Source: a virus | Strand: one strand, 5' to 3' | IMG/VR virus record: IMGVR_UViG_3300047369_000089 | Coordinates: 1-30,744 of that record | DNA: 30,744 nt | Program-made: the position numbers and the translations under genes | Shown: positions 12,898 through 30,744 of the stretch, piece by piece | Layout: the number at the start of each line of letters is the position of its first letter | Numbering within the stretch: the first letter of the stretch is position 1 | Notes under the pieces: generated by a model | Told to the model about the DNA's origin: nothing | Databases searched by the model: none | Seen by the model: only the letters and a program-made list of their open reading frames with translations

Positions 12898-12932
12898 ACT
12901 TATATAACTAAAAAAAAAGAATTTGTTTTAAA
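12897..12932 (-). promoter_or_regulatory. Bipartite motif upstream of the 109-aa virion gene
   Basis: On the minus strand this reads TTTAAAACAAA, nine bases, then TTTAGTTATATAAGTA, whose last A is the A of ATG. It starts right behind the terminator at 12934-12960. One of five copies. Confidence 0.6.
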
Positions 12933-12933
12933 T

Positions 12934-12960
12934 AAAAAAACCCCTACCAAAAGGTAAGGG
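12934..12960 (-). terminator. Intrinsic terminator after the tail tube gene
   Basis: The minus strand forms CCCTTACC/GGTAGGGG with a TTTT loop, one G-T wobble, and seven following Ts. It would reduce read-through from the strongly expressed tail tube gene into the portal genes. Confidence 0.85.
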
Positions 12961-12982
12961 CTTTAAAAGATTGTTTTGTTGC

Positions 12983-13537
12983 TTATGGTATCTCTACAAC
13001 ATTAATCCCAGCGTTTGCTAATTCAGTTTGAGTTACTGCTTCAAAGAAGTTTGCTGGTACTCGCTCTTGTGCTGTAAGAGTGATTGTGTATCCAGACATA
13101 TCTCCCATAGCAGCTCCAGTAGAAATTGTACCACCAGTTACCTCTGCACCATGCTCTAAACCACAGTAAAAGAAATTATTGTTATGGTCTTTTACAATGA
13201 TATGAGGGCGACCGAAAGCCATCAATTTAACTTCTTTATGAGTAGCTAAATCTTGCTTCTTTAGAGACAAATTTAATACTTGCTCAAAGAAAGTTGTTCC
13301 GTTATCTCTTGAGCTTGTAATAGTTTGCTCGAAAGATGAAGTACCTTTTAACTCGTACTTGTAAGCGTTAATAGTACTAGGTGTACTATTTAGATGGTCT
13401 ATAACATCTGTATTAGTTGCGTTATAGCTGATGTCTTCTACTGGCGCATCGTCAAAATTGATGAAGTAAACGGCATCCAATCCACCCACTACATCTTTAC
13501 AAGGCTCTATTCTGCCTAAGCTTAAGTCACATGACAT
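12983..13537 (-). CDS. Major tail tube protein
   Basis: The 184-residue protein starts MSCDLSLGRIEPCKDVVGGL, followed by a beta-rich fold with FEQTITSSRDNGTTFFEQVL and YTITLTAQERVPANFFEAV. These features match the tail tube protein family common in flavobacterial phages and prophages. Two hundred residues or less and strong beta content fit the subunit of a siphophage tail tube. It lies between the major capsid gene and the portal, with its own terminators on both sides, which is typical for highly expressed virion proteins. The call rests on recognition of the family. Confidence 0.8.
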   Translation of the reverse strand: MSCDLSLGRIEPCKDVVGGLDAVYFINFDDAPVEDISYNATNTDVIDHLNSTPSTINAYKYELKGTSSFEQTITSSRDNGTTFFEQVLNLSLKKQDLATHKEVKLMAFGRPHIIVKDHNNNFFYCGLEHGAEVTGGTISTGAAMGDMSGYTITLTAQERVPANFFEAVTQTELANAGINVVEIP

Positions 13538-13554
13538 ATTATAAAGTTTTATAT

Positions 13555-13583
13555 AAAAAAAAGGGAAGGCATTTTACCTCCCC
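13555..13583 (-). terminator. Intrinsic terminator after the major capsid gene
   Basis: The minus strand gives stem GGGGAGG/CCTTCCC (one G-T wobble), loop TAAAATG, and eight Ts. It lies between capsid and tail tube genes. Confidence 0.85.
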
Positions 13584-13609
13584 TCTTCTTATTGGTTAAT
13601 AATTAATTC

Positions 13610-14551
13610 TTAGATTCCGTAAGTTACAACGTCACCAGCGAAAGCGTACTGAACAGCAGCGGTCATTCGCATGATTACACGTACATTCTCTGAACCATCA
13701 AGGTCTGCCATATCCAAAACTTTAACTTCTTGTGAGTCAGAAGCCAAACCAGTTCCGAAGAACAAGTTATCTTTAGTAGTACAGATAGCTGTATCGTCAG
13801 ACATTCCGTTACACATGAACAATGGAATACCATCGAACATTAAATCTCCAAATGCTTGGTTGTTACCTTGTGCATTAACACCAGCAGCTCCAAGTCCGCT
13901 ACTTCCGAATCCACCAAGTGAACGTACGTAAGCTCTGTAAATGTTAGAAGAAACGTAAAGAGTAAGTCCTTCAACTCCGTACAAACGTGTAGGAATTGCG
14001 TCTACAATAGAACCCAATTCTGTAACTACGTTTCCAGCGTCAACACCGCCAACTGCTGCTGCGATTTGCTGTCCAGCTGGAAGCTCTGCGTCTGCTGCTA
14101 ACAAAGTTTCGAAACCATCGAATTCTCCTGCGTTAGCGTTCACTCCAGACCAGATATTCTGTTCCATCTTACCAGCTACTTTAGCTGCTACGTGTCCGAT
14201 TAAGAAATCAGCAAAAGATGCTGGAATCTCATCGAATGCAGAATAACCCATTTCAACCGCATCCCAATCTTCTCTGAAATCTGCTTTACAAACTTGTAGA
14301 TTCACTTTAAAAGTTTCTGGCTCAAGAATCTTCTCATCCAAAGTAAGTGAAGAGTTTGCGTCAAAGTCACAGTTTGCATTAGATAACAAGTCTCCAGTAG
14401 AAACTCTTTTCAATACTGATTTGTACTTTACATTTGGCTTTACTGTAATACCACCGTTCTCGATAGTGTTAGCACTCAATAGTGCTGCTGCTACATATCC
14501 AGCTGCTTTTTCTCCAGCGTATGTAGTTGTAATTGTTGTTGTTGTTGGCAT
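13610..14551 (-). CDS. Major capsid protein
   Basis: The 313-residue protein is preceded by protease and scaffold-like genes and followed by a terminator, the usual surroundings of a major capsid protein. It has a Thr-rich N-terminus, central helical and beta sections (CKADFREDWDAVEMGYSAFD; AKVAGKMEQNIWSG) and the ending MTAAVQYAFAGDVVTYG, all consistent with the HK97-fold capsid family of flavobacterial phages. Its N-terminus is not obviously processed. The fold is inferred from family recognition and neighbourhood. Confidence 0.8.
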   Translation of the reverse strand: MPTTTTITTTYAGEKAAGYVAAALLSANTIENGGITVKPNVKYKSVLKRVSTGDLLSNANCDFDANSSLTLDEKILEPETFKVNLQVCKADFREDWDAVEMGYSAFDEIPASFADFLIGHVAAKVAGKMEQNIWSGVNANAGEFDGFETLLAADAELPAGQQIAAAVGGVDAGNVVTELGSIVDAIPTRLYGVEGLTLYVSSNIYRAYVRSLGGFGSSGLGAAGVNAQGNNQAFGDLMFDGIPLFMCNGMSDDTAICTTKDNLFFGTGLASDSQEVKVLDMADLDGSENVRVIMRMTAAVQYAFAGDVVTYGI

Positions 14552-14577
14552 ATTTGTTGTTTTTAAAAAAAAAATTA

Positions 14578-15225
14578 TTATTTACTCAATTTTGCTATTT
14601 TGCTCATTACAGAATCAGTAGTACCTCTCTTTCTTTTGTTTCCGAAAGTGTGAAGTTTTACTTCTGCTTTTGGCTCTGGATTGTGAGCGATAGGCTTAAC
14701 CTCTGAAAGCTCTACTTCCTCAGTTACCTCTTCTTCTACCTCTTCTACTTTTGTAGACGCTTCAAGCTGTGATTTAAGCTCAGTAATTTCAGCTGTCAAC
14801 GCCTCAATTAATGCGCTTTCTTTTGAGAACTTAGTTTCTTTAACTACTGACTCAATGATTGACTTAGCTGGGCGTACTTCCTCAGAAGCCTCAACTTCTT
14901 CAGCTGGTTCTTCTGTAACTTCTTCTGCTACTTCTTCTGTTGGCTCTTCTGCTTCTTCTTCAACTTCTACCATTTCAGAAATAACTCCTTCTTCTGCTAC
15001 TTTGAACGCTCTACCATCTTCGAGTTCGTAAGCCTCATTTTCTCCAGATACTGGAACTGGGATAAGTTGCTCGTCTTCTGTTTTAACCATTACTGCCGCA
15101 CCAGCTTCAAAGTCTGGAGTAGCTTCAATAATTGTAACTCCATCTTTTAACTTAGCCTCAGCAAGTTTAATCTCTTCAGCTTTCAAGCCTACTGCTTTTA
15201 GAATTGTGTTTATTTGCTCTTTCAT
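14578..15225 (-). CDS. Scaffold-like acidic protein
   Basis: The 215-residue protein has a short globular N-terminus and a long, very Glu/Val-rich middle (repeated EEV, AEEPTEEV, about residues 85-120 and 155-175), with a helical coiled region between. It lies directly before the capsid gene and behind the protease gene. Composition, coiled-coil propensity and position fit a capsid scaffolding protein, degraded or removed when the head matures. The basic ending could bind capsid protein. Confidence 0.7.
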   Translation of the reverse strand: MKEQINTILKAVGLKAEEIKLAEAKLKDGVTIIEATPDFEAGAAVMVKTEDEQLIPVPVSGENEAYELEDGRAFKVAEEGVISEMVEVEEEAEEPTEEVAEEVTEEPAEEVEASEEVRPAKSIIESVVKETKFSKESALIEALTAEITELKSQLEASTKVEEVEEEVTEEVELSEVKPIAHNPEPKAEVKLHTFGNKRKRGTTDSVMSKIAKLSK

Positions 15226-15237
15226 TTGTTGGATATT

Positions 15238-15271
15238 TAACTATATAACTATTTATATTTGATTTGTTTTA
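15238..15271 (-). promoter_or_regulatory. Bipartite motif upstream of the scaffold gene
   Basis: On the minus strand this reads TAAAACAAA, nine bases, then AATAGTTATATAGTTA, ending 12 bases before the ATG at 15225. It is one of five copies of the same arrangement. It may be a phage-specific promoter or translation leader. Confidence 0.6.
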
Positions 15272-15274
15272 TTT

Positions 15275-15424
15275 TTATCCGCTTACGTTTATAATAGTAC
15301 GCTCAGTATTAACGTTTACAACATTGCTAACGCCTTGATTGACTAGCGAACCTATACGCTGTCCAGTTAACTTTTCATACTCCTCAGCTGTTAGCTTTGT
15401 AGCGTATTTCTTTTTTCTTCTCAT
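15275..15424 (-). CDS. Small basic protein between protease and scaffold, 49 aa
   Basis: The start codon follows the protease stop (TAG) without a gap. The frame encodes 49 residues beginning MRRKKKYATKLTAEEYEKLT and ending with VNTERTIINVSG. It is basic at the N-terminus and otherwise beta-like. Exact abutment of stop and start supports translation. No function is recognised; a minor head protein is possible. Confidence 0.6.
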   Translation of the reverse strand: MRRKKKYATKLTAEEYEKLTGQRIGSLVNQGVSNVVNVNTERTIINVSG

Positions 15425-16345
15425 CTACTTAGATTCAATGATATTTTTAATCTGATCTACTATGTCTTTAAGCTCAGACTTGTTGTCTATGGACTTTAGT
15501 TTATCAATAGCCCAGTTAATACCAGAAGCTCCACCCCATCCAAGCCAAGCTACTCTGCCTTTATCTTTCCATGGAGTATCTTTGAACTCTTCGCTTACCT
15601 CAGCATTTTTTTGATGACGTTTAAAAGATGCCATTCTAGCAATCGTATCTCTAGAAATATTTTCTCCCTTTGCTAATTGGTTGGCACGAGTCCAGCCCAC
15701 TCTAGTCATTCCTTGTACCTCATCTCCGTACTCTTCTCTCCACTTCAAAACTTTCTTAGCGTTGTTCTTTGCGCTTTGCGGATAGTCGTTATATGATTCA
15801 AGCTCTACTTCTTCATTCATTTGCAAAGCCTCAAATCCTTGAAAGATTGCCTCTATACTAAAACCTTTGTAAGTACCATCTTTTGCTTTACTGTACTCTG
15901 AATCGCTTAGAGACATCATTACTACCCACTCGCCACCTTTAGGCTCAAGTCCGTACATGTTAGCCTTGTCGTTATCTTTGTCTTCTACTATCCAGCTCTC
16001 AATAACGCAGCAGTCTTTTACTGGCTTCTCGTGTTCGCTTGTTACGTTGTTTAGGTTTAAGTTCTTCATGTAAAGAGCAGCCGCTTGTGCTACTGTATCC
16101 TTTGACATTATTATATTGAACTGCTTACCATCTTTCACTCTAGGTATTTCAAGGTCTGGAATTAAAGCGTATCCTACTACTACCTTTCTCTCCTCATCAA
16201 TAGTCTTTAATTCTACTGTGAATTTGTTAGCGTCTTCCTCAGATAGTGCTATAAAGTCTTCCATAATCGCTGGATTTTCTACTAGCGAAATTGCGAAAAC
16301 TCCATCTTCGTCTTCGTCTTTGATAAATAGTTCTATGGTCTGCAT
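15425..16345 (-). CDS. XkdF-like head maturation protease with extra C-terminal domain
   Basis: The 306-residue protein has an N-terminal half (about 1-175) with the pattern GVFAISLVENPAI, VVVGYALIPDLEIPR, EHEKPV, IESWIVEDKD and KGFSIEAIF. That is the pattern of the XkdF-like family of putative phage serine proteases. The C-terminal part (about 190-290) is a distinct domain with RVGWTRANQLAKGENISRDT and KGRVAWLGWGGASGINWA, seen in proteins near capsid genes but without known function. The protease would process scaffold or capsid. It stands upstream of scaffold and capsid genes. The proteolytic role is inferred from the family. Confidence 0.75.
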   Translation of the reverse strand: MQTIELFIKDEDEDGVFAISLVENPAIMEDFIALSEEDANKFTVELKTIDEERKVVVGYALIPDLEIPRVKDGKQFNIIMSKDTVAQAAALYMKNLNLNNVTSEHEKPVKDCCVIESWIVEDKDNDKANMYGLEPKGGEWVVMMSLSDSEYSKAKDGTYKGFSIEAIFQGFEALQMNEEVELESYNDYPQSAKNNAKKVLKWREEYGDEVQGMTRVGWTRANQLAKGENISRDTIARMASFKRHQKNAEVSEEFKDTPWKDKGRVAWLGWGGASGINWAIDKLKSIDNKSELKDIVDQIKNIIESK

Positions 16346-16378
16346 ATTTATTTAACTAGTTTTTTGTGTTTTGTTTTA
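16345..16378 (-). promoter_or_regulatory. Bipartite motif upstream of the protease gene
   Basis: On the minus strand this reads TAAAACAAA, nine bases, then ACTAGTTAAATAAATA, with the last A being the first base of the ATG. The arrangement is shared with four other gene starts. Confidence 0.55.
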
Positions 16379-16403
16379 AATTCTTTTCTTATATTTGCAT
16401 CTG

Positions 16404-16501
16404 CTAAAGAGAGCAAAATTTAATTTAATTTATTTATTTATGTTCCCTTAGTTTCTTTAAGGTTAGGTATTAGGGTAGGCGTGGTTTCCTACCCTTTTTT
16501 T
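16404..16501 (+). ncRNA. Putative plus-strand small RNA ending in a terminator
   Basis: In the 154-base gap between protease and tape measure genes, the plus strand has TATATTTG (16390-16397) and, about 75 bases on, a perfect intrinsic terminator. An RNA of about 95 bases would result, with a small internal hairpin (CCTTA/TAAGG, 16446-16462). No plus-strand protein of any size is encoded. The -33 element is weak (TTTTG with 16-bp spacing, overlapping a minus-strand motif), so the start is uncertain. The RNA would be the only plus-strand transcript of the genome. Confidence 0.4.
16473..16501 (+). terminator. Plus-strand intrinsic terminator
   Basis: GGGTAGG (16473-16479) and CCTACCC (16488-16494) form a perfect 7-bp stem around CGTGGTTT, followed by seven Ts. 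On the minus strand no T-run follows the stem, so it works in the plus direction, opposite to all genes. The tape measure stop codon lies in the T-run. Confidence 0.8.
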
Positions 16502-18593
16502 ATAGTGTCGCTGTTTCTACTTTGTTTCTATCTAAGCTCTGCTGAGTTGTAACCTCAGAACCTACTACAAACGCTTGTATAGGTTGCTGTCCTTGATTGC
16601 CTAAAGTCTCAGCTAATTGATTCACTCCAGTATTACCTACTACGTTGAAACTCGCTGGCTGTGATGATGGAGTAGAAACGCTACTACTAGGAGCAGTTGG
16701 ACTACTTCCAGCCGCACCGCCTTGAAACTTGCTTTTTGCTATTGTAGCAATTTGAGCCGCACCAGTTGCCGCTACGATTCCAGCCTTTACAAAGTTAGCA
16801 CCAGTCAAAGCATCTTGAGGGACTGATAACTGAGCCATTACACCCTGAGCTGTGCTTATTACTGCTTGAGCTATACCAACAGCTTTATTAACTTTAAACG
16901 CTCTCTCTGCTGATTTTTCATCATCTTTAGCGAATGCAGTAGCCAAGTCTCCTAAAGCTCCGAAAGTATCAGAAGCTAAACTTAATCTTTGGTCTGCTAG
17001 GTCTATCTTTCTTTGTCTTTCCTCTTCATCGTATTCTTGTAAATATCTTTGAGTTTGTTCTTCTGTTTTTCTTCTTGCTACCGCAGCATCTATATCAGCA
17101 GTCTCATTCGTTAAGTCCGCTTGTTTTCTTAAAGGTATTTCTTCCTCTCTATATTTAGCCCTTATTTCAGCTAACTTTTTCTCTAGTTCGTCTGCCTTTA
17201 ATATCTTAATTTGATTCTTCTGGTCTTCTGTTCCTACTATGTTTTCTATTTCTCTTTCGTGTTGAGTTCTAGCTTGTGCTATTTCTCTCTCTCTATCGTC
17301 TTCAATAGCTTTATTAGTTAGGTCTTCTATTAGCTTTCTTGCAGTTTCTTTATCTCTTAAAAATTCTTTGTATTTAGCTACTCTTTTAGCTTGTCTATCT
17401 TCTTCTTCTTTAACTCGTTTTTCCGCTTCTGATTTTATTTCTTCATTACCAGCTTGTATCTCTTCCAATATAGAGGCTTGAAACTGTCCCTCCATATTTT
17501 TAAGAGTATGATATTTTTCTCTAGCAGTTTTTATTGTTTCCTTTGCAGCTCTTGCAGCCTCATCGTCTTCTGCTTCTTTGGCTTCTTTGTAAAGTTTCTT
17601 ACCTTCTTCTAGTACGGCTTCTTGTAGAGCTAAATTTTCAAGCCTTGCCTTTTCATCTTCTTTAAGGTTTTTAAGTCTTGTCGCTCTCAGCTCTTCCTCA
17701 CTTGCTCCAGTAGCTTTTAAGATTCTCATTTGAGTATCTGCTAACGCTTTACGTCTATTATTAACTCTATCCATCGAAGTAGTTAACTTGTCATAAGCAG
17801 CGTTCAAGTTTTCTGTACTTGTTGTTAAGTCTTCAGTACTAGAGAAGAAATACGCAAAAGCTGAGACAACAGCAGTTATAGCAGTAACTAACCAGAATAT
17901 TGGACTACCCTTTACTGCTGCGTTAAATATTTTCATTCCAACAGTACCAGCTTTAGTAGCTGCGTTAGATGCCGTTTGCGCTACTGTTTGTCTTATAGTT
18001 GCAAGTGTTAACTTTTTATCTCCCTTAGCTTGTAGGTTTGTTAATACAGTTCTTACTTTTAAACCTAGTGCTGTCTCATCACTTAAAGCATTAGCAACTG
18101 CGTTAACACTATTTAGGATTGACTGTACAGCCATTAGCTTTTGAATGCTCTTAGTTACCTCTTCATTCTCAGAACCAAATAAAGCAGCCGCACCCATTGC
18201 ACCCTGAGCAGCTCCACCAATCGCTTGAAAGGCTTGAGTACCTAATTGCAATCTTGGGAAGTCTGCCGACATACTACGAACCGCAGCCTTAGCGTTATTC
18301 ATTTGGTCTCTTAGTACACCAGCCTCTTTTGCTAACTTCTGAAACTGTGGACTGTTAACGTCTCCGATATCTGCTAGTTCATCCTCAAGCTCTCTTAATC
18401 TAGTCTTTGTATTCTTAGCAGCTTGAGCTGTTTTGTCAAGTTCTTTGTTTAGCTTTTTAGCATTCTCTCCAGATAGATTTTTCTTTGCGCTTTGCCCAAT
18501 AGCGTCAATGTCTTTTTTGATTGCTTTTAAATCCTTATCCGCTTTTTTGCTGTTGCTTTTAATATCTATTTCAACGGTCTTTTTTACTGCCAT
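16500..18593 (-). CDS. Tail tape measure protein
   Basis: The 697-residue protein is of tape measure type. It has a Lys-rich N-terminus, heptad-rich coiled regions (about 10-110 and 280-510, strongly charged), a hydrophobic stretch (about 228-250, IFWLVTAITAVVSAFAYFF), and an Ala/Gly-rich region followed by a Ser/Pro-rich end. Such proteins set the tail length and enter the cell envelope with the DNA. Using the usual 0.15 nm per residue, the tail would be about 100 nm. It lies after the tail tip genes, not before them, in the direction of transcription. The start overlaps the small upstream gene. Confidence 0.85.
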   Translation of the reverse strand: MAVKKTVEIDIKSNSKKADKDLKAIKKDIDAIGQSAKKNLSGENAKKLNKELDKTAQAAKNTKTRLRELEDELADIGDVNSPQFQKLAKEAGVLRDQMNNAKAAVRSMSADFPRLQLGTQAFQAIGGAAQGAMGAAALFGSENEEVTKSIQKLMAVQSILNSVNAVANALSDETALGLKVRTVLTNLQAKGDKKLTLATIRQTVAQTASNAATKAGTVGMKIFNAAVKGSPIFWLVTAITAVVSAFAYFFSSTEDLTTSTENLNAAYDKLTTSMDRVNNRRKALADTQMRILKATGASEEELRATRLKNLKEDEKARLENLALQEAVLEEGKKLYKEAKEAEDDEAARAAKETIKTAREKYHTLKNMEGQFQASILEEIQAGNEEIKSEAEKRVKEEEDRQAKRVAKYKEFLRDKETARKLIEDLTNKAIEDDREREIAQARTQHEREIENIVGTEDQKNQIKILKADELEKKLAEIRAKYREEEIPLRKQADLTNETADIDAAVARRKTEEQTQRYLQEYDEEERQRKIDLADQRLSLASDTFGALGDLATAFAKDDEKSAERAFKVNKAVGIAQAVISTAQGVMAQLSVPQDALTGANFVKAGIVAATGAAQIATIAKSKFQGGAAGSSPTAPSSSVSTPSSQPASFNVVGNTGVNQLAETLGNQGQQPIQAFVVGSEVTTQQSLDRNKVETATL

Positions 18594-18730
18594 GCTTTCT
18601 CTCTTTTAATCTGTTTAGACTTCTCTTTAATTGATTTGCTTATCTTGTGCTTTCCTTTTGCTATGTCTATTAGTTCGCTCTCTCCGTAGAAGTCTGAGAC
18701 TTTTAACATCTGTATTAATAAATCTATCAT
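18584..18730 (-). CDS. Small basic protein upstream of tape measure, 48 aa
   Basis: An ATGA overlap with the 791-aa gene opens a 48-codon frame that runs into the tape measure start. The product begins MIDLLIQMLKVSDFYGESEL and ends in a Lys-rich helix (KISKSIKEKSKQIKREK). Position and overlap at both ends strongly suggest a real gene. Small proteins here may help tape measure assembly, but no family is recognised. Confidence 0.6.
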   Translation of the reverse strand: MIDLLIQMLKVSDFYGESELIDIAKGKHKISKSIKEKSKQIKREKAWQ

Positions 18731-21102
18731 AGTAGTATATTATCAAAGTTTTCTTGTAGTATTGAACCATCACTTTCTGTAAGTAGTTTGTCACTATACG
18801 CCTCTTGCGTTACTACAAGTGTTCTAGTCCACGCTAACGAACCATCTGCATAGTAAGAGGAGTATATTATAGTCTGAGTTCTATCTTGTCCAGTAGTGTT
18901 GGCTGGTGCTGTTATTGTCCAAATCTGTTCTCCAGTTACTCCAGTAGATGGAAGCGGAATAGATGAGGTAATAAATGGAGTTTCTATTGGTGCTTGAAAA
19001 TCTGTATAACCTCCGTTTTTGTTTTTGACTGGTACATATATCGTACCTCCAACATCTGGTATAGGAGGAGGCGTTGGTTGTAGCGTTCTCTCATCTACAA
19101 AGTCACTAACTAGAACCATCTTTACAATTCCGCTTGTTAGGTCGCTAGTCATGTCGTTAATTCTGTACTTCTTATCTCTTACTATAATCGCATCATCTAG
19201 AGTTAACTTAGTCAGAATCTCAAGCGGAAGCATACATTCTAGCGATACTTTTCTACTCTTAGTGTTGAATAAGTTTACAATGTAAGATTGATAGTATGTC
19301 TGGTATAATCCGTTTGTTACTACGTTGTTAGATAGTGAGCTGACTTCCTCTCCAAAGTTTATAGAGTACTCAGCGTTATTGTACTGTATCTCTTGACCGA
19401 ATGGCATATAAGATGATACTGGATTATTACTAGTTCCATCGTTAAAATAGAACTCGCATACTTTAGAATCTTGTAAATACAGCTTGACTGGTTTTGGTAT
19501 GTATGGCTTTACTGGTACAGTTGGCTCTTCTAAGCAGTAAGATACTTGCAAGTTTCCGTTAATAGTATCGAAGTTTGTAAAGAGTAAAGTTTCAAAAGGT
19601 AGCTTAACTTCATACTTGCCACCATCGTTATTAAATACTTGTTTTAGGTTTCCGTATTGCCTAGCGTTTATACCCTCAAAAGCATCGTTTAAAAACGCTT
19701 TACTTTTTACATATTCAAAGTTAATCTCATTGTACAGTTTTAAGCGGTCTACTTGTATCGTATCTGTGTTTACATACTTAGTGATGTCTATAATATCTCC
19801 AGCAGCGTACCAGTCCTCTAATGGCTCAATCTGGTAAGTTAAATTTTCATCTAAAGGATAGCACGTTAAATTGAACTGCTTTAGAGTACCAGATAACCAG
19901 TCTGTAACTTTCATGTCTGGTGCTGTTGTGGTTAGGTTTAGAGTTCCAGTCGTAACTAGTCCAGTAGTTGTGTAGCTACAATTTTCTGTTAAAGTTTGCA
20001 AGGCTAAAGGAGACTCTAAATACTGACCTTGAAAAGTGTACTCTACATTAAAATCAAAGCTCATCGCTCCGTTACTTCTAAACTGAAACGTGTACTCATC
20101 ATCTAATCCAGAGAAGTTGTTTTGTACAACAACATTTTGAACAATACTATTTGAGCCGCTAATAGTGTTTATTAGAGTTCCGTTTTTGTAAACATCTACA
20201 AAGAAGTTACTACTTGTAGAAGTGTTAAATATTGCTATCGTTACTGTGTGATTGAAAGAGTTAAAAATCCAGCTTCCAAAGTTTGGAGGAGTGGGAAACG
20301 TGTTAAGGTTTACATATTCAACATTTACAACATTCGTACCTACTGCGTTAGGAATGTCAGTAGTACATGAAGTGCTAAGAGGATTGAAGGTTATATCTAT
20401 TGGTTCAGAAGTAAAGTTAGGATTGTTGCTGTTTTTCCACCAAGTATAAGACTTCTTAAAACGCTGGTCTGTTAAAAAATTACCTTGAAAAGTTACGTTA
20501 AAACTGTCCTCTATAATCTCCATTATTTTGGCATCGCTAACTGCTGGGAATAGCTCTTGATAGTTTACCGCTTGAGCTTGTTCGTCAATACCACTACCAT
20601 CGTTATAAGTCCAAATCCTATCCGAGCTAATTAAAGGGAAACGTATATCTCTAAACGTAGGGTCTGTGATTGAATCTTGAACGTCTGAGCCGCTGTAGTT
20701 TTGTGAGATACTAGAATAGTCCAAATCTCTGAGCTTTGCCTCTCCTATGACATCTTTAAGCGTTACCACATCGCCATAAAAAGTAACCTTGTACGATTCT
20801 ATTTGGTTGTTCTTTATGGTTGTACCTTCAAGCTGTAACTTACCCTTTCTAAACTTATTGAAATCTATCTCTATTCTAGCATCTACTCTCGTATTTGCGT
20901 CAAAGCTATCGTTATCATTATTGTAGTAGAATCCAAATATCTCGTTATTGTTGTCACTCGCTGGAAGTGTAAAGCTCTGCGAGAAGTCGGTAAACACTTT
21001 GGCGATGTCTGCAATATCCTGAACGCTAGATTTAACAACTATCTTCTCATCGTTAAATAAGTCTACTCTTTTATTGTTAACGTATATCTGTACCTTTCTC
21101 AT
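18727..21102 (-). CDS. Tail tip/baseplate-like protein with C-terminal Ig-like domain
   Basis: The 791-residue protein starts MRKVQIYVNNKRVDLFNDEK and continues with a beta-rich region that contains FSQSFTLPASDNNNEIFGFY, a pattern I know from large tail proteins of Bacteroidota phages. The middle has long beta-rich stretches, and the last about 100 residues (IPLPSTGVTGEQIWTITAPA, RTLVVTQEA) resemble a bacterial Ig-like/BACON-type adhesion module. It probably forms part of the tail tip and contacts the cell. It overlaps the 344-aa gene by a single base. An exact baseplate role cannot be fixed. Confidence 0.65.
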   Translation of the reverse strand: MRKVQIYVNNKRVDLFNDEKIVVKSSVQDIADIAKVFTDFSQSFTLPASDNNNEIFGFYYNNDNDSFDANTRVDARIEIDFNKFRKGKLQLEGTTIKNNQIESYKVTFYGDVVTLKDVIGEAKLRDLDYSSISQNYSGSDVQDSITDPTFRDIRFPLISSDRIWTYNDGSGIDEQAQAVNYQELFPAVSDAKIMEIIEDSFNVTFQGNFLTDQRFKKSYTWWKNSNNPNFTSEPIDITFNPLSTSCTTDIPNAVGTNVVNVEYVNLNTFPTPPNFGSWIFNSFNHTVTIAIFNTSTSSNFFVDVYKNGTLINTISGSNSIVQNVVVQNNFSGLDDEYTFQFRSNGAMSFDFNVEYTFQGQYLESPLALQTLTENCSYTTTGLVTTGTLNLTTTAPDMKVTDWLSGTLKQFNLTCYPLDENLTYQIEPLEDWYAAGDIIDITKYVNTDTIQVDRLKLYNEINFEYVKSKAFLNDAFEGINARQYGNLKQVFNNDGGKYEVKLPFETLLFTNFDTINGNLQVSYCLEEPTVPVKPYIPKPVKLYLQDSKVCEFYFNDGTSNNPVSSYMPFGQEIQYNNAEYSINFGEEVSSLSNNVVTNGLYQTYYQSYIVNLFNTKSRKVSLECMLPLEILTKLTLDDAIIVRDKKYRINDMTSDLTSGIVKMVLVSDFVDERTLQPTPPPIPDVGGTIYVPVKNKNGGYTDFQAPIETPFITSSIPLPSTGVTGEQIWTITAPANTTGQDRTQTIIYSSYYADGSLAWTRTLVVTQEAYSDKLLTESDGSILQENFDNILL

Positions 21103-22136
21103 TATATGTTATAGTTTAAGGTTGGATTCGAGTACTTAAATGAAAGGTTGTAGTTTATGTTTCTGTTGTTTATGTTCTTCTGTAATTCTAAAGACTTCGT
21201 TTCTACATTTACTGGTTTGTCATCTAGTAAAATATTCTCACTCAGTAGTAACTGTTTCATTACCTCGCTGTATGATTCAAACACCCAGCCAGTGTTGACA
21301 GTTATTTTATCCATTCCGTTAACGTTAAATACTTGCCTTACATTTCGCTTTACGTTGTAATCTATATCTTCTGGCATTAGGTTGTACTCAGAGTTTGACA
21401 TTGCAAAGCTCTCTTGAGAAGCCTTAAAGAATACTAGCCTCTGCCACGCTCCAAACTTGTTAACAAAGTCGCAGTTTATAGTCTCGTATTTGCACTCACT
21501 TTGAACGTGAAAATAGTAGGTATTTTGTACTACTGAGTCTTTTATAATCTCCAGCTTGTTACCAGTTGTTAAATATGATAAATGAACGTAAGGAATATAA
21601 CCTACTTCGTTGGCTAGTGTTATCGTTGTAGTAGTTCCTCCAGCTGCTAGGTCTGTGTATCTAGCTTGCCAAGTTACAGACTGATCATCATAGTAGTAAA
21701 CGCCTCCACTATTACCAACAGCGTTAACGTAGTAATCTCCATCGGATAAGAATTGTGTGTGAGCTGGATTCGCTCCCTCTGCATGGTATCCGAAACCATC
21801 AAAGCAAATAAAGTTGTAATTGAATGAAGCTAGTAAAAGTACTCCGTTACGATATACGTCAACGTGACAGTAAGCGTACTCGTTTACATTTGCTGCTGTG
21901 TCTGTTGTTACTTCTACATAGTTGATATGTTCAATGAAGCCTCTACAATATGGCGAAATGTCAAAGTGACATTCTGTAATAATACTGCTTGGTATTGGTT
22001 TCTCAAGTATAAAGTTAGGAGTTGCTGGTTGTGACGCTGGGTCGTTCCATAGGAATATCTCAGCTCGTATGTCATCATTCGCTACACCAGTTGCGCTAAT
22101 TATCTTTGGACTTCTTACGTTTATTGGTTCTGACAT
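21102..22136 (-). CDS. Tail protein, distal tail candidate, 344 aa
   Basis: The 344-residue beta-rich protein begins MSEPINVRSPKIISATGVAN and includes aromatic-rich and Cys-containing strands (CHFDISPYCRGFIEHINYVE). It has no membrane segment. I know similar proteins from the same place in flavobacterial phages but not a proven function. It overlaps the large tail tip gene by one base and is preceded by a divergent form of the early-type leader (TTTAAACACTTAAAAATG). Likely tail tip or fibre-attachment. Confidence 0.6.
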   Translation of the reverse strand: MSEPINVRSPKIISATGVANDDIRAEIFLWNDPASQPATPNFILEKPIPSSIITECHFDISPYCRGFIEHINYVEVTTDTAANVNEYAYCHVDVYRNGVLLLASFNYNFICFDGFGYHAEGANPAHTQFLSDGDYYVNAVGNSGGVYYYDDQSVTWQARYTDLAAGGTTTTITLANEVGYIPYVHLSYLTTGNKLEIIKDSVVQNTYYFHVQSECKYETINCDFVNKFGAWQRLVFFKASQESFAMSNSEYNLMPEDIDYNVKRNVRQVFNVNGMDKITVNTGWVFESYSEVMKQLLLSENILLDDKPVNVETKSLELQKNINNRNINYNLSFKYSNPTLNYNI

Positions 22137-22138
22137 TT

Positions 22139-22663
22139 TTAAGTGTTTAAAGAGCTTTCTATTAGCTCGTCAATATCTAGGTTAAATTTCTCTATTATCT
22201 CGTCTGGTAAGTTCTTAAATGCGTTCTCAAATGGTTTAGTAAAGAACATACTTGGAGCAATTCCTTTATGGTATATTGATTTAGCAATCAGAAATCCCAT
22301 AGCTTTATGAGACATGAACCTACCAGTCTTCTTATCATTCCATTGGAAACCTTTTCTCTTTACCCAGTCAGTCATAATTTCACTCATTGGTCTTCCGCCA
22401 GTTGCAGAACCAGTACCAAATCTAAAAGGACTCTGTGGTGCTTTTGCGCTAGATGATTTACCTTGTACTCCCTCATCAACGAAAGCTCCGTACTCTTCCA
22501 TGTAAAAGCTCAAACTAAACGAGTTCTTAAATACGTCTAACTGATAACCTAGAGAGCCGTACAAGTTGTTCGTGTCTTTCTTGCCCGAATTACTTAGTCT
22601 GTTTTGGCTTTCTTTAATTACAGCCTTTGCAAACTTGCTTAGATATTTCTGTACCTCTTGCAT
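22139..22663 (-). CDS. HK97-gp10-like neck/tail completion protein
   Basis: The 174-residue protein carries SQNRLSNSGKKDTNNLYGSL near its start, then YMEEYGAFVDEGVQG and PFRFGTGSATGGRPMSEIM, patterns seen in the gp10-like family of head-tail joining/tail-completion proteins. The rest is helical. It follows the 151-aa gene with a one-base overlap, and both precede the distal tail genes. The family call is moderate. Confidence 0.65.
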   Translation of the reverse strand: MQEVQKYLSKFAKAVIKESQNRLSNSGKKDTNNLYGSLGYQLDVFKNSFSLSFYMEEYGAFVDEGVQGKSSSAKAPQSPFRFGTGSATGGRPMSEIMTDWVKRKGFQWNDKKTGRFMSHKAMGFLIAKSIYHKGIAPSMFFTKPFENAFKNLPDEIIEKFNLDIDELIESSLNT

Positions 22664-23118
22664 TAGCAGATAGTCATATCGTTTTTATACAACACGTTAA
22701 AGCTCAAAGCCCATCCAGCTAGGTAGTTCTCAAAGCGTTCTGTAAATGGCTCAAATGTAGGTTGACCATCAAGTTGGTATTTATCTCCCCAGATGTCTCC
22801 ACGCCTAGCTCTTTCCATCAATCTCATTCCTACTGCAAACTGAGTATTGAGTACATCGTGTTCGTTATCGTTTCCTACAAATACGTCTTTTGTTTGTTCG
22901 TTGTTTATGTCTACTATATCTGTGAGTATAATAGAAACCGAAAAGCTAACTACTGGGCCTTGATGCAGAACGCTTCCCACCATAATATGAGACAGAGGAA
23001 AGATAGTCTGTTTGTTTAGGTCTACTTTAAATATATCTCCCTCAGATACTGTGTTAACGTTTACGTCTTCCTCTAAGGCGTTTTTAAGTAGTGTTGTTAT
23101 ATCGTAGAATGCTGTCAT
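22663..23118 (-). CDS. Tail terminator-like protein, 151 aa
   Basis: The 151-residue protein contains VDLNKQTIFPLSHIMVGSVL, then a set of beta strands (VSFSVSIILTDIVDI), and NYLAGWALSFNVLY at the end. This layout recurs in flavobacterial phages and has the size and fold pattern of tail terminators, which cap the tube and join it to the neck. It starts on the ATGA overlap with the stop of the chaperone's frameshift extension. The role is inferred from size, neighbours and pattern. Confidence 0.65.
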   Translation of the reverse strand: MTAFYDITTLLKNALEEDVNVNTVSEGDIFKVDLNKQTIFPLSHIMVGSVLHQGPVVSFSVSIILTDIVDINNEQTKDVFVGNDNEHDVLNTQFAVGMRLMERARRGDIWGDKYQLDGQPTFEPFTERFENYLAGWALSFNVLYKNDMTIC

Positions 23119-23382
23119 CTTTTTAGTGCTTTATTCATTAGGTTTCTTTCTAATTGGTTTTTCTGTTTTATATAGGTTAGAAAATTAAATGCTTGGGAAG
23201 CTCTAATTTTTGTAACATCTCCGAACTTTCCAATATCTCCATCTGCGAGTGCATAGATTGAATGATACCATCCCCATTGTCTGTTGAATTGTGCTTGTTC
23301 GCTGTAATCATCTCTTTCAGCTCTTGCTTCAAATAGTTGTGAGTAGCTTTCAATAGTTCGTTTCCTAAACGATAAAAAAAAA
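23115..23382 (-). CDS. -1 frameshift extension of the tail assembly chaperone (T-like)
   Basis: In the -1 frame relative to the 227-aa gene, a clean reading frame runs from the T9 run (23374-23382) to TGA at 23115. It would add 86 residues, including FNRQWGWYHSIYALADGDI and KFGDVTK, typical of the T-part of tail chaperones, then TYIKQKNQLERNL. It has no usable ATG, GTG or TTG start after the preceding in-frame stop. The stop overlaps the next gene's ATG (ATGA). Slippage on GTT TTT TTT TAT would join 162 residues of the first protein to this part, giving about 248. The two frames share about 200 bases, and both look coding. Confidence 0.75.
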
Positions 23383-23860
23383 CCAGCGAACCCATCGCAA
23401 CATTCAACGGCATGAATTTCATTATTTCTGCGTACTCTTCTGTACCATCGTAATCTCTGACATCGTACTTGTCTTTATAGGTATTGGTTACTGGTCTGTA
23501 AAGAACTGCCATAGCTTTGTGCATCTCTTCCCAGTCTGTTGAATACTTATCTAAATCTACGTACTCTCCAAAAGTGATAGATTCAAGCGATGGTATAAAG
23601 CCGAAGTCTACGCCCTCAAGTTTAAACCTAACTTGTATATCTTGTTCTACACTAAACAACATATTTAAGTGTTCGCTAATGTCTCTAACATCAGATAGCT
23701 TTATATTTGCCACCTCGTTGATTCTAACGCCACATAATGAGCTTACTGTACATTGTGCTAGTTCATCGCCTTCGAGTCCCTTAGAAGCGCTTAAAAACGT
23801 CTGATACTGTCCTAGAGTTATCTCGCTTAAATCTTCTGGTATTGTTATTGTTGCTTTCAT
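23177..23860 (-). CDS. Tail assembly chaperone (G-like), zero-frame product
   Basis: The 227-residue protein begins MKATITIPEDLSEITLGQYQ, a start shared by chaperone-type proteins near the tail genes of flavobacterial phages. It is helical and acidic, with LVFFYRLGNELLKATHNYL near 160-178 and an ending (GIIQSMHSQMEILESSEMLQ) that fits the family. It carries the T9 slippery run at codons 160-163, which allows a longer -1 product. Such G/GT pairs keep the tape measure soluble and recruit tail tube subunits. It is preceded by a terminator and a bipartite motif, so transcription may start anew here. Confidence 0.7.
   Translation of the reverse strand: MKATITIPEDLSEITLGQYQTFLSASKGLEGDELAQCTVSSLCGVRINEVANIKLSDVRDISEHLNMLFSVEQDIQVRFKLEGVDFGFIPSLESITFGEYVDLDKYSTDWEEMHKAMAVLYRPVTNTYKDKYDVRDYDGTEEYAEIMKFMPLNVAMGSLVFFYRLGNELLKATHNYLKQELKEMITANKHNSTDNGDGIIQSMHSQMEILESSEMLQKLELPKHLIF
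23374..23382 (-). promoter_or_regulatory. Probable -1 ribosomal frameshift site (nine consecutive T)
   Basis: Nine Ts read on the minus strand span codons GTT TTT TTT TAT. They provide the type of slippery stretch in which P- and A-site tRNAs can re-pair after shifting back one base. Downstream the -1 frame is open for 86 codons with family-like sequence. No clear stimulatory stem or internal Shine-Dalgarno was established by eye. Confidence 0.65.
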
Positions 23861-23896
23861 TACTTATAAAACTAAATCTTTCTATTTTGTTATAAA
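23861..23896 (-). promoter_or_regulatory. Bipartite motif upstream of the chaperone gene
   Basis: On the minus strand this reads TTTATAACAAA, nine bases, then TTTAGTTTTATAAGTA directly before ATG. It starts within or just after the terminator at 23899-23923. One of five copies. Confidence 0.6.
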
Positions 23897-23898
23897 CC

Positions 23899-23923
23899 AA
23901 AAAAGCCCCCATTTCTGGAGGCT
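23899..23923 (-). terminator. Intrinsic terminator before the chaperone gene
   Basis: The minus strand gives stem AGCCTCC/GGGGGCT (one G-T wobble) with loop AGAAAT and six Ts. It ends the two-gene unit transcribed from the promoter at 24390-24420. Loop and arms match the terminator at 5501-5527, so the two are paralogous. Confidence 0.85.
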
Positions 23924-23928
23924 CTCTG

Positions 23929-24051
23929 TTACTTTAATCTTATTGTTCTAATTAGGAACTGCTCAAATGTGATTCCTTTCAGATTGAGAGCAATATATAA
24001 ACCATACTGCTCTTGCCTCTGTTTCTTTGTGATTAACTTACTCGGCTTCAT
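23929..24051 (-). CDS. Small protein, 40 aa, in the operator-controlled unit
   Basis: The start codon lies one base after the stop of the 101-aa gene. The frame encodes 40 residues starting MKPSKLITKKQRQEQYGLYI and ending with EQFLIRTIRLK. It is basic and helical. It is the second and last gene of a short unit that has its own promoter and terminator. Translation is likely from the coupling; no family is recognised. Confidence 0.6.
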   Translation of the reverse strand: MKPSKLITKKQRQEQYGLYIALNLKGITFEQFLIRTIRLK

Positions 24052-24052
24052 T

Positions 24053-24358
24053 CTATCTTTTTACTAAGTCCATTATTCTATCAATTGACTCTTGGTCTCC
24101 GTCAAAACTTCCGCTCAGATATATAAAGTTAGAACCGTTGTCCTCATGGTCTTCTGCTTCAAGAATACCCTTTTTACACAGACTACCAACCACACCCTTT
24201 AATGTTGAAGGTAGAAGCAGCTCCTTCTCATTGTCGAATATATCAATCGAGATATTGTTAATATTCTTAACGTTCTCTCCCGCATCGTTGATATTTTGCG
24301 TTGGGATGAAGTTTCTTAAAACTTGCTTCTCTAATTTTGTAAAATTTAAATCTTTCAT
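24053..24358 (-). CDS. Winged-helix-like small protein, 101 aa
   Basis: The start at 24358 is chosen because the longer frame from 24418 would run through the promoter; the ATG is preceded by AAAGGAATT. The product begins MKDLNFTKLEKQVLRNFIPT and contains LLLPSTLKGVVGSLCKKGIL and NFIYLSG. This looks like the recognition helix and wing of a small winged-helix DNA-binding protein. Its promoter carries the same inverted-repeat operator as the early promoter, so it may be a phage regulator that acts on both. The fold call is moderate; regulation is inferred. Confidence 0.6.
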   Translation of the reverse strand: MKDLNFTKLEKQVLRNFIPTQNINDAGENVKNINNISIDIFDNEKELLLPSTLKGVVGSLCKKGILEAEDHEDNGSNFIYLSGSFDGDQESIDRIMDLVKR

Positions 24359-24389
24359 AATTCCTTTACTTTGTTTGTTTCTGTTGGTA

Positions 24390-24420
24390 CAAATATAAGT
24401 AAACTGTTTACATCTCACAA
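24390..24420 (-). promoter_or_regulatory. Second early-type promoter with operator
   Basis: The minus strand carries TTG (24418-24420), a 20-bp spacer, and TATATTTG (24390-24397). Arms GTAAAC and GTTTAC (24399-24411) form an inverted repeat in the spacer. Compared with 5431-5461, the flank AACTTGTGAGAT, the TAAACA and TTATATTTGTA are the same, and the spacing is equal. It drives the 101-aa and 40-aa genes. Confidence 0.75.
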
Positions 24421-24491
24421 GTTATTAACGAACTTTTTTTAAATTATTTTTGATTTGCCCACTATGACTGAGATACAGAGCGAAAGTTTTT

Positions 24492-25697
24492 TTAGTAAAT
24501 GAAGTACTTGCCTCTATTTGGTTTCTCAAGCTGGTATGTCACAGCGTACCTGATAGCATCTAAAGCATGGTTATGATCATCTATCGGTGTGTTAGATTTA
24601 CGCTCTAGCCAACAGTAATTATTTAGCTCTTTGATTAGCTCTTGAGAATCTGGGCTTATTACTAGGTCGTAATCTTGTAGGATAGTTATTCCATGAGTTA
24701 CTGAGCCTTGACCTTTCACAGCTGGAATTATGTTTAGTCCTTTCTGCTTTAGTTCTTTTATCAATCGAGGCTCTGCGCTGTCTGCTATAATTAAGCTCGT
24801 ACCAGCTACTTTTTCATTCACTTGATGTATTTGGCTTGTGGTTAAGTTTGGCTTGTATAGATGAAGCATAAGGTATATCTTCTTGTTTGCTTTGTCTACG
24901 TTCGTTTCTACTAGCGTTGTGGGGTCTACTGAGAAGCCGAAATCTTGACCATAAACAGAAGTACCTACTCGCTTAAACTCTCCGACTTCCCAGTTAGAGA
25001 ATATCACACCTTCAGCTTTCGATAACCAGCCTCCTAGTATTTGGTGCTTGTACTTCTCTGGTCTTCTCTGTTTAATATTCTCTACTTGCTTTAGAAAGCT
25101 CTCAGATAGATTCTCTAAGTTGTCTAGGTAAGTAGTGTGTATGTATGTAGTATCGTCTTTACTTATGTTGCTTCCCTCTTGAACTCCTCTAGTCTCAAAG
25201 AACTTCTGATAGATAAAATGTTCTTTTGTGGTTGGGTTCATTATCATGATCACTCTGTTAGCTATTCCTTTTTGACGTACTGACATATCAATAGTGTCAA
25301 ATACGTTCTCGTCTACAAGCTCTTCAGCCTCATCTAGTACCCACGTTGTTACTCCTTGCAAAGACTTTAGAGAAGCTACCTGATTCCCTGAGCTGGTTTT
25401 GATACCTCTGAATAGAATCTTAGAGCCAGTCCTTGTATTTATTACCTCATCTCTTGTAATATAAAACTCAGATTCTAAACCTAATAAACCAATCTTTTCC
25501 ATAAACTCTGGTATGATGGAAATACTAGCAGACCTCAAAGTATAACGAGTAAAAAGTATAGTATGCCCAGCTTCATAAGTTAAAAGCAAAAGAAGCGTAT
25601 TAACAGCGAACGACTTACCAGAACCACGACCACCAGTTATAACGCAATACCTAGTATTATTCTCAATAGAAAGGTACTTGCTATTTATCTCCATCAC
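24492..25697 (-). CDS. terL: Terminase large subunit
   Basis: The 401-residue protein is a Terminase_3-type motor and nuclease that packages DNA into the prohead. The ATPase domain shows Walker A GGRGSGKS (22-29), Walker B VLDEAEEL (120-127), and a coupling motif MIMNPTT (151-157). The nuclease domain follows with QDFGFSVDPT (251-260, Asp252), IIADSAEP (303-310, Asp306) and DDHNHALDAIRYAV (373-386, Asp380). All are intact. Its start overlaps the small subunit gene by 17 bases. After the gene there is a gap of about 70 bases leading to the promoter at 24390-24420. Confidence 0.95.
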   Translation of the reverse strand: MMEINSKYLSIENNTRYCVITGGRGSGKSFAVNTLLLLLTYEAGHTILFTRYTLRSASISIIPEFMEKIGLLGLESEFYITRDEVINTRTGSKILFRGIKTSSGNQVASLKSLQGVTTWVLDEAEELVDENVFDTIDMSVRQKGIANRVIMIMNPTTKEHFIYQKFFETRGVQEGSNISKDDTTYIHTTYLDNLENLSESFLKQVENIKQRRPEKYKHQILGGWLSKAEGVIFSNWEVGEFKRVGTSVYGQDFGFSVDPTTLVETNVDKANKKIYLMLHLYKPNLTTSQIHQVNEKVAGTSLIIADSAEPRLIKELKQKGLNIIPAVKGQGSVTHGITILQDYDLVISPDSQELIKELNNYCWLERKSNTPIDDHNHALDAIRYAVTYQLEKPNRGKYFIY

Positions 25698-26055: not shown

Positions 26056-27132
26056 TTATTTCATTTCGAAAGACGCTGTTATTCTTTGTTTGCTATTATT
26101 ATTAGGGTCATTGTTTCCATGAATAATTCCAGTTTTTGCATTTAATCTGCCAAATCTATTACATTTCCAAATATTTGATTTTTTTAAAGCATTAATTAAA
26201 CTTGGAGCTGAGGTAACTATTGTGTACCTAAATTTTTGATTTTTGTAAAGTTTTCCTATTTCATTTAAAAATTTAATGCCAAATCCAGCACCTTGATAAT
26301 CTGGCAAAATTACCAATCTATGGACTTTTTTAATGTTTTTAGCTTTTGGATGAGGCAAATGTAAAACACTTAAAAATCCTGCTATCTCATTGTTAATAGT
26401 TGCCAAATAAACATGAGCTGCATTATTATGACTATGACTTAGATAATGGTGTTTAGCAAACATCTTCCAAATTGATTTATTTTTAGATTCGTAGATGTTG
26501 AATTTAATTTTTGGTCTATTTTTTTTTTGCTCTTCAAAAGATTGAAAAGTCATAGTATCTGTATTAAAAACCCAATCTGGTAATAACCAATCTTCTACGT
26601 CATGATGACAAGTAACAGCTATAAATTGTTTTTTTGTTTTTCTTATTGCTTTCTGCATTGCAAAAGAACCTATTTTAGCTACATTTCTATCCACTACGCT
26701 TGTAAATTCATCAAAAACAAATAATTCATTTTTTTCTAAAATTGCTCTTGCTAAATCTACTCTCATTTTTTGACCATTAGATAAAACAGAATAAGGTTTT
26801 AACCAACTTGGTGGACTTGAAAAACCTACCGAATTGAAAGCATTAGTTATATCTTTTAAACTACAATTTTTTGGCATATCATCTAAAATAGTTTCAGCTT
26901 TATAGTTGAATTTATCTATATATGAGTTTTTAAATAATTGTTTTGCTATTGTTGTCTTACCAGTTCCACTTTTTCCGACTATCAATCCTATTTGCCAATT
27001 TTCTTGTATATCTATATCTCCTTTAAAATGTTCTATAACATGTTCAGATTTTAAGTCAAATTGCCCTATTATAGATGCTACTCTAAATGTTTTTTTGGGT
27101 TTTACTTCTTTTATAATGTCAAAATTCGGCAT
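26056..27132 (-). CDS. ABC-type ATPase fused to a GNAT acyltransferase domain (COG2401-like)
   Basis: The 358-residue protein joins an ABC ATPase half to a GNAT half. The ATPase has Walker A GKSGTGKTT (53-61), signature LSNGQKMRVDLARA (117-130), Walker B LFVFDEF (137-143) and H-loop CHHD (175-178), with no membrane domain. The GNAT part (about 220-327) has KHHYLSHSHNNAAHVYL, HRLVILPDYQGAGFG (271-285; the acyl-CoA-binding Q-x-x-G-x-G/A-like loop), and TSAPSLINALKKSNIWK. The HHYL and RLV landmarks resemble the Mom-like GNAT subgroup, which modifies DNA bases. It overlaps the ParB-like gene by 22 bases. It is much richer in A/T (about 28% GC by hand count against about 40% in terL), a sign of recent gain. 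A DNA modification or counter-defence role is inferred. Confidence 0.8.
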   Translation of the reverse strand: MPNFDIIKEVKPKKTFRVASIIGQFDLKSEHVIEHFKGDIDIQENWQIGLIVGKSGTGKTTIAKQLFKNSYIDKFNYKAETILDDMPKNCSLKDITNAFNSVGFSSPPSWLKPYSVLSNGQKMRVDLARAILEKNELFVFDEFTSVVDRNVAKIGSFAMQKAIRKTKKQFIAVTCHHDVEDWLLPDWVFNTDTMTFQSFEEQKKNRPKIKFNIYESKNKSIWKMFAKHHYLSHSHNNAAHVYLATINNEIAGFLSVLHLPHPKAKNIKKVHRLVILPDYQGAGFGIKFLNEIGKLYKNQKFRYTIVTSAPSLINALKKSNIWKCNRFGRLNAKTGIIHGNNDPNNNSKQRITASFEMK

Positions 27133-29759: not shown

Positions 29760-30542
29760 TTAACTTAGTGTTTTGTAGTATTCTCTAGCCATCTTTACAG
29801 CCGTTTTCATCTTCTCAATGTCTTCATCTGTTAGCATAACCTTAAACGCTTTTAATCTCTTATCTGTTGGGATCTTAGATATGTCGAAGTACTCTATTAC
29901 CTCTCGCTCTGTTTCCTCAGATACCTCTGCACCCTCGCCACGCTTCCAGCTAACTCTTCTCATTTCATCCAGTATTAAGTTCTCTGGAGTTGGTACAAGA
30001 CAATAGCATAGGTAGCTCTCAGTTCTACCAGTTAGCCACATATAAGCCTTGAGCTGCCATTCGTATAGACTATTGTTTAGTTCAGTATCAAAGAATGGAA
30101 ACGTAGCGGCAGACCAACTAGACTTAACATCTATAACGCTATCACTTGTTAACACATCAGGTGTACCTTGAATGAAGTCATTCTCAAAATGCTCATCATT
30201 CTTAAATAAGAAATCCTTCTCTAGCATTATGCTGGTAAGCTCTATAGAAGCCTCCTCTACCTCGTTACCCTTATCCAGATACTTAGAATTGATTTCTTGC
30301 TTAATACCGAACTCACGCTCTAAATAAAGCTCTGTAACATAGCTCTTCGCTCCCTTGCTTAGTTCTGGCTCTGCATCTCTCTTGAGTAGTAGCGTATCTC
30401 TTAGCTCTGCTTGTTTCTCGGTTAGCTTAATCTTAGCCAGTAACCCGTTCAAGGTTACCAGCTGCTTCTCTGTGATACTTGTTTTACTATCTGTTGCCAT
30501 CAGCCTACCAAGCTGTGAGGCTCTTATCTTTAAGTCTTTCAT
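29760..30542 (-). CDS. PD-(D/E)XK exonuclease (YqaJ/RecB-like)
   Basis: The 260-residue protein has the active-site pattern of PD-(D/E)XK exonucleases: KGNEVEE (91-97), IQGTPDVL (124-131, Asp129), SVIDVKSSW (135-143, with DVK at 138-140) and QLKAYMWL (163-170). An N-terminal helical region precedes. Such nucleases degrade one strand of duplex ends to create substrate for the annealing protein, here ERF, whose stop overlaps this start (TAATG). The pair therefore forms a Red-like recombination system, with SSB downstream. Confidence 0.85.
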   Translation of the reverse strand: MKDLKIRASQLGRLMATDSKTSITEKQLVTLNGLLAKIKLTEKQAELRDTLLLKRDAEPELSKGAKSYVTELYLEREFGIKQEINSKYLDKGNEVEEASIELTSIMLEKDFLFKNDEHFENDFIQGTPDVLTSDSVIDVKSSWSAATFPFFDTELNNSLYEWQLKAYMWLTGRTESYLCYCLVPTPENLILDEMRRVSWKRGEGAEVSEETEREVIEYFDISKIPTDKRLKAFKVMLTDEDIEKMKTAVKMAREYYKTLS

Positions 30543-30744
30543 TATCCTAGTCTTTTAAGTTGCTCAGGTGTTAACTTGAAGCCGTTAATAATTTGCTCTT
30601 TTTTGATTGTACCTTTTTCAATCGCTGAAAGAGCTTTCTCAAATCTGTCATTAGGTAGAGCTTTCTCAAATCTGTCGCTAGGTAGAGGCTGCTTAGCTGC
30701 GTCTGTATCTACATCTGTAACAATGCCGAGAAGACAGCTCAATG
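30536..30744. repeat. Right copy of the 209-bp terminal redundancy
   Basis: This is the second copy of the window's first 209 bases and differs only at C30661 (T126 in the left copy). The mismatch changes one codon of the ERF protein (Ala here, Thr in the left copy). It falls within a 27-bp tandem repeat, so it may reflect strain variation or exchange between repeat units. Confidence 0.95.
30542..30742 (-). CDS. erf: ERF gene, repeated 3' part (contig redundancy)
   Basis: This is the C-terminal 66 codons of the same ERF gene found at 7-549, seen again because the contig overlaps itself. It is open to the window edge and has no real start here; the apparent Met is internal to the full protein. 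It differs from the other copy by one residue (Ala for Thr in the first repeat motif). Count it as one gene with 7-549. Confidence 0.9.
   Translation of the reverse strand: MSCLLGIVTDVDTDAAKQPLPSDRFEKALPNDRFEKALSAIEKGTIKKEQIINGFKLTPEQLKRLG

Follow-up and report, generated by a model that had tools for sequence, protein, structure and literature searches.

A conserved T9 slip site followed by a dual-coded overlap of about 200 nucleotides in a putative tail assembly chaperone gene of a phage family

The slip site of the lambda G/GT gene pair is GGGAAAG. The shift at lambda G/GT is ribosomal (PMC5009743). T-runs are found as slip sites in Smp131-type P2-like prophages, which carry T6G, T7G and T7C (PMC3931495), and the original prediction for the locus described here, which called a homopolymer slip site unusual, is hence right in part only. 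In the SEA-PHAGES set, the distance from the slip to the zero-frame stop averages 26 nt (PMC10885494). In many bacterial genomes, signs of selection against slippage begin at runs of nine A or T residues (PMC1088944). Neither the G/GT principle nor the use of a T-run as slip site is new; what appears to be new is the family, its near-invariant T9 and an overlap of about 200 nt with selection on both frames. No earlier report of this arrangement, a T9 run with a dual-coded overlap of about 200 nt, nor of a frameshifted tail chaperone in Bacteroidetes phages, was found in a literature search that mostly covered work outside subscription journals.

We identified the gene in a virus contig (IMG/VR record IMGVR_UViG_3300047369_000089, positions 1 to 30,744; this whole stretch of 30,744 nucleotides is referred to as the window). 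It is encoded on the minus strand, as are all features described for this locus. The zero-frame gene (23177..23860) specifies a G-like product of 227 amino acids (computed mass 26.0 kDa) that matches phrog_32199, a family without a functional label. Within the gene lies a run of nine T residues (23374..23382; A9 when read on the plus strand) with the zero-frame phasing G GTT TTT TTT TAT, and past this run the zero frame continues for 65 codons until a stop at 23179-23177. Reading one base back at T9 gives VFF-LSFRKR...NKALKR (full -1 sequence LSFRKRTIESYSQLFEARAERDDYSEQAQFNRQWGWYHSIYALADGDIGKFGDVTKIRASQAFNFLTYIKQKNQLERNLMNKALKR), an extension of 86 codons (23118..23375) which contains a WGWY motif and is predicted to form a T-like domain. 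The TGA stop of the extension (23115..23117) overlaps the start codon of the following gene, an ATG at 23118, in the form ATGA. These coordinates confirm the predicted -1 frame of 86 open codons ending in an ATGA overlap, and the computed mass of the 248-amino-acid fusion, 28.7 kDa, agrees with the predicted value of about 28 kDa. It had also been proposed that the -1 frame has no independent start after its last stop. The open stretch begins at 23474, upstream of T9, with no ATG, GTG or TTG between 23474 and the T-run, and the first ATG in this frame (23138) is only seven codons short of the end of the ORF, leaving a shift as the sole access to the extension. Taken at the level of sequence, the T9 run almost certainly allows this phage and about 170 distinct relatives to produce a second protein that ends differently.

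Relatives were gathered with the window protein, one relative of 41% identity and two alignments as queries. The search returned 255 homologous loci, a few of which represent the same contig twice, giving 256 sequences with the window; after removal of near-duplicates, 172 non-redundant clusters were retained, window included. P12024L was left out of one set of family alignments. In the wider family, 346 relatives were confirmed in one scan and more than 560 in each of two others. Two of the homologous loci belong to cultured Nonlabens phages, P12024L and P12024S, in which the T9 is likewise found, and three further contigs originate from genome bins labelled Winogradskyella and Bacteroidetes. 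Because of these relatives, the hosts of the phage family are likely flavobacterial, with marine flavobacteria as the best link.

A T-run was present at the equivalent place and in one phase in all 256 sequences. T occupies zero-frame positions 3-10 in 172/172 clusters (T TTT TTT T is kept), and the run is nine bases long in 167 clusters, ten in four and eight in one (L094). On a tree of 167 clusters, a minimum of 22 changes is required in the codon before the run, of 35 in the codon after it and of 6 in the class of the run. The absence of homologues of the -1 frame in related phages, or stops or a separate start within it, had been named as observations that would speak against the prediction. 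Homologues of the -1 frame were found at the 255 loci and the frame is unbroken, comprising 80-92 codons in all loci not ended by a contig edge. The WGWY motif is present in 154/172 clusters and recognisably altered in most others, and the ATGA overlap at the -1 stop is found in 111 of the 166 testable clusters. Some ATG, GTG or TTG codon occurs in the -1 ORF of 81/167 relatives; no -1 frame ATG precedes codon 60 in 153 of the 167 non-redundant relatives. Homopolymers are error-prone, and the annotation of gene 41 of P12024L begins at an ATG within the -1 frame, which could point to a sequencing or assembly error at the run or to a -1 ORF that forms an independent gene with a start codon of its own. 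We regard either as very improbable. An error was ruled out by the single phase in 256 sequences including the cultured phages, and both frames remain open between proteins of 41% identity; a separate start was rejected on the position of the first ATG in the window and the counts in relatives given above.

To assess selection on the two frames, stops were counted in fixed 10-codon bins after the slip, regardless of where the first zero-frame stop falls. Given the -1 proteins and the codon usage of the family, the zero frame is expected to stay open for about 13 codons; the mean over 167 relatives was 65, and the probability that the window's own zero-frame tail is open by chance was about 0.007. 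Over the first 50 codons, 13 zero-frame stops were observed vs 383 expected, and over the first 60 codons past the T-run 61 were observed vs 566 expected (bins 1-6: 0, 2, 3, 2, 6 and 48 observed; 180, 7, 42, 3, 151 and 183 expected). The next three bins held 211, 257 and 109 stops, with 257, 215 and 92 expected. These counts therefore indicate that selection removes stops over a stretch of about 50-60 codons, beyond which they are neutral. In the reverse test, the -1 frame contained 1 stop vs about 870 expected given the zero-frame protein, and among 150 synonymous recodings of the window's zero-frame tail none (0/150) kept the -1 frame open. On this comparative evidence, neither chance nor a sequencing slip explains the frame pair.

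Substitution classes were analysed in 62 independent pairs, with rates expressed relative to the single-frame synonymous rate. Changes that alter the zero frame and are silent in the -1 frame occurred at 0.16, 0.28, 0.42, 0.50, 0.42 and 0.59 in successive bins, and at 0.59 in the -1-only tail, which serves as the reference for the same class. Changes that are silent in the zero frame and alter the -1 frame occurred at 0.36, 0.40, 0.32, 0.16, 0.27 and 0.33. Constraint on the zero frame is strongest in codons 1 to about 20 and that on the -1 frame in codons of about 30-40, so zero-frame constraint prevails in the first 20 or so codons and -1 constraint around the WGWY motif. Stop depletion and substitution classes both support the prediction that about 200 bases are coding in two frames; the stretch in which both frames are open measures 199 nt (23177..23375). 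Both endings are under purifying selection in the overlap, as judged from relatives that are not independent of each other.

The fading of the zero-frame constraint from codon 25 or so, which reaches the -1-only level by codon 50-60, could also mean that the -1 ending alone matters and that the zero-frame tail is a by-product which is kept open for another reason, for example so that ribosomes stay on the message and Rho-dependent polarity ahead of the following tail genes is avoided. The zero-frame tail moreover ends early, after 16-26 codons and with the -1 ORF intact, in four clusters (L154, L165, L174 and L012), and because of these the distal part of the zero-frame ending seems dispensable in some phages. 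We nevertheless consider a mere by-product improbable, since the first 20 or so codons are strongly constrained (0.16 and 0.28 vs 0.59 in the -1-only tail) and the helix predicted across the slip site continues in the zero frame. The short tails end roughly where this helix is predicted to end. Two selected endings remain the preferred reading: the slip site and the start-less -1 ORF are conserved and both frames are constrained, as established by comparison of the relatives.

The shift had originally been described as translational. That the -1 extension is accessible by a shift only is supported, but T9 fits transcriptional slippage equally well, and sequence gives no decision between slippage of the ribosome and of RNA polymerase. 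The run provides the heptamer T TTT TTT, which is perfect for ribosomal slippage, and to a ribosomal shift by tandem slip on U UUU UUU we assign slightly better than even chances, a slight lean that is due to precedent. Alternatively, RNA polymerase may add one U on T9, and some mRNAs would then have U10 and be translated into the fusion without any ribosomal shift; products of third-frame transcripts would stop at once. This is a serious possibility, if somewhat short of an even chance. Nine A or T is a common threshold length for such slippage (PMC1088944), and a run of nine is kept in 167/172 clusters, with L120 and L133 having the run shifted by one base and still nine long. Position 9 of the run is never C, though C would be silent in both frames, and the remaining genes of these phages avoid A9 runs (0 found vs 17 expected). 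The third frame is closed within 2-3 codons in 163/172 clusters, and immediately in the window. An energy scan for a stem-loop stimulator, a downstream element that accompanies many but not all programmed -1 frameshifts, also gave no local folding signal near the site (mean z -0.5 to 0.2). Against slippage by the polymerase, L094 has T8 only and an intact -1 ORF, which counts for the ribosome, and amino-acid constraints together with the U UUU UUU heptamer predict an almost identical pattern of conservation. T9 elsewhere was seen once vs 2 expected, numbers too small for a test, and the literature search, conducted mostly without subscription journals, found no report of slippage for a tail chaperone. 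That a chaperone pair whose ratio is set by the polymerase on a near-invariant T9, with two separately functional C-termini in about 200 nt, operates across a large, probably flavobacterial, phage family is, taken as a whole, less likely than not.

Structures were predicted with AlphaFold2 for the two halves separately. The zero-frame product showed a confident N-terminal domain followed by a long helix (residues 152-191) which runs across the slip site (161-162) and in which model confidence falls towards the end; the -1 extension was modelled as a four-helix domain. According to these models, the slip thus replaces the last part of a helix by an additional domain. A fold search of both halves against the PDB gave no significant matches, and the similarity to 2ob9, the tail assembly chaperone of HK97, is within noise (Z 3.3 over 68 residues). 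Among viral predicted structures, 36 matches at E up to 1e-3 were all to uncharacterised or unnamed proteins, and one weak match (E 0.1) is labelled tail assembly chaperone. Searches of Pfam, NCBIfam and PDB sequence profiles returned chance-level matches only and no significant named family; phrog_166 ('tail protein') was matched by 3/61 relatives.

The neighbourhood of the gene is conserved. Upstream lies the gene for the terminase large subunit (24492..25697, minus strand), which was identified by tblastn against relatives and whose homologue in P12024L is annotated as terminase, and downstream the gene for a conserved protein of 151 amino acids (22663..23118, minus strand). In relatives the order terminase large subunit, frameshift gene and genes of 151, 174, 344 and 791 amino acids is kept. 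In the window this series is followed by the gene for a probable tape measure protein of 697 amino acids (16500..18593, minus strand), four genes downstream of the frameshift gene and with several weak tape-measure matches that include phrog_1506 and phrog_1538. Across positions 10748-25697 of the window, the genes are transcribed in an unusual order: terminase comes first, the putative chaperone and further tail-type genes follow, and after the probable tape measure come a protease, genes of capsid type and the portal.

Because of the structural resemblances, the conserved neighbours and the phrog_166 matches, we infer that the product is a tail assembly chaperone, an assignment which is quite likely correct. 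The chaperone identity put forward in the original prediction draws on the architecture, the tail-gene context and weak fold matches, and is less firm than originally put. The gene might instead encode a two-ended minor structural or other tail protein, since it matches no significant named family or solved fold and does not adjoin the probable tape measure gene, whereas G/GT genes typically sit directly upstream of theirs. This is unlikely in view of the G/GT-like architecture, the tail-gene neighbourhood and the weak resemblances to the HK97 chaperone, the chaperone-labelled viral model and phrog_166. The G/GT arrangement of a common N-terminal domain and a -1 extension is present, and the gene probably encodes a G/GT-type pair with a shared N-terminal domain and two alternative C-termini, for which a chaperone role is proposed.

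In our model, for which expression, slip rate and tail-chaperone function are inferred, most of the product would be the zero-frame protein, with the helix across the slip site running about 29 residues further and ending in a poorly ordered tail. A minority of decoding events at T9 would step one base back and result in the fusion, which would carry the T-like domain of 86 residues, predicted to be helical. If the pair acts as lambda gpG/gpGT does, its common domain would attach to the tape measure protein, the T domain would bring in the tail-tube protein, and the slip rate would set the ratio of the two products.

Several other features of the window were observed. A run of ten A residues on the coding strand (26519-26528) is located inside a gene of 358 amino acids (27132..26056) with a P-loop motif, which on visual inspection resembles an ATPase. 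Elsewhere in the coding regions of these phages, long A-runs are rare; past this run both other frames close, one of them only after about 34 codons. The ORFs at the two ends of the window (7-549 and 30542-30742) share a nearly identical C-terminal peptide, DRFEKALSAIEKGTIKKEQIINGFKLTPEQLKRLG; there is no exact terminal repeat, so the shared peptide may reflect varied terminal redundancy or an assembly wrap. Two neighbouring genes (8347-9174 and 9194-9811) have in common a C-terminal domain that ends in FTVSGTTLT and is present once in each, in what looks like a tandem duplication.

Annotation has missed the longer product in this family; for the two cultured members it shows a pair of hypothetical genes in the region. 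About 170 natural variants round one slip site make the question of ribosome or polymerase directly testable. The locus is further a clean example from nature of extended dual coding on one strand, with constraint passing from one frame to the other along the overlap, and it opens a way into the tail module of a phage group that is abundant and poorly annotated.

A structural relative of the N-terminal domain was identified by Foldseek in gp10 of Flavobacterium phage 6H (L257 10352-10927). This gene carries T6 near the C-terminus and its -1 frame closes at once, without an open extension, so any second 6H product must arise in another way, and for the same reason the frameshift arrangement is not universal among flavophages. 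The 6H gene lies about 2.6 kb upstream of an annotated tape measure gene. Genes 40/41 of Nonlabens phage P12024L and 38/39 of P12024S are direct homologues (about 30% identity) with T9 and the -1 ORF, but have a zero-frame tail of 25 codons and are annotated as two hypothetical genes with no frameshift. At these loci (L012 5995-6689 in P12024L and L013 3995-4689 in P12024S), the deposited annotation has genes 41 and 39 begin at an ATG within the -1 frame; the conserved domain starts upstream of that ATG, at T9.

Thermus dnaX, IS elements and Shigella mxiE have a nine-base homopolymer and two C-termini in common with the present gene (PMC1088944, PMC5009743); slippage is established there and is a candidate here, and no tail chaperone was reported to use slippage in the papers found. 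P2 E/E+E' and the Smp131-type prophages share the T-run slip site and a -1 extension without a good start (PMC3931495). Unlike here, E' of P2 overlaps E by 37 nt only, and in the P2-like prophages the length of the run and the next base vary, whereas T9 is nearly invariant in this family (PMC3931495). With about 200 nt of dual coding, the locus takes a device known from phages to an uncommon length. As in lambda gpG/gpGT, one gene gives two products by a -1 shift near its 3' end, the C-terminal extension is reached by the shift only and the site is located among tail genes (PMC5009743). In contrast to lambda, with which no sequence similarity was detected, the slip site here is a T-run, the tape measure gene is not adjacent, and the zero-frame ending of 65 codons past the slip is itself under selection.
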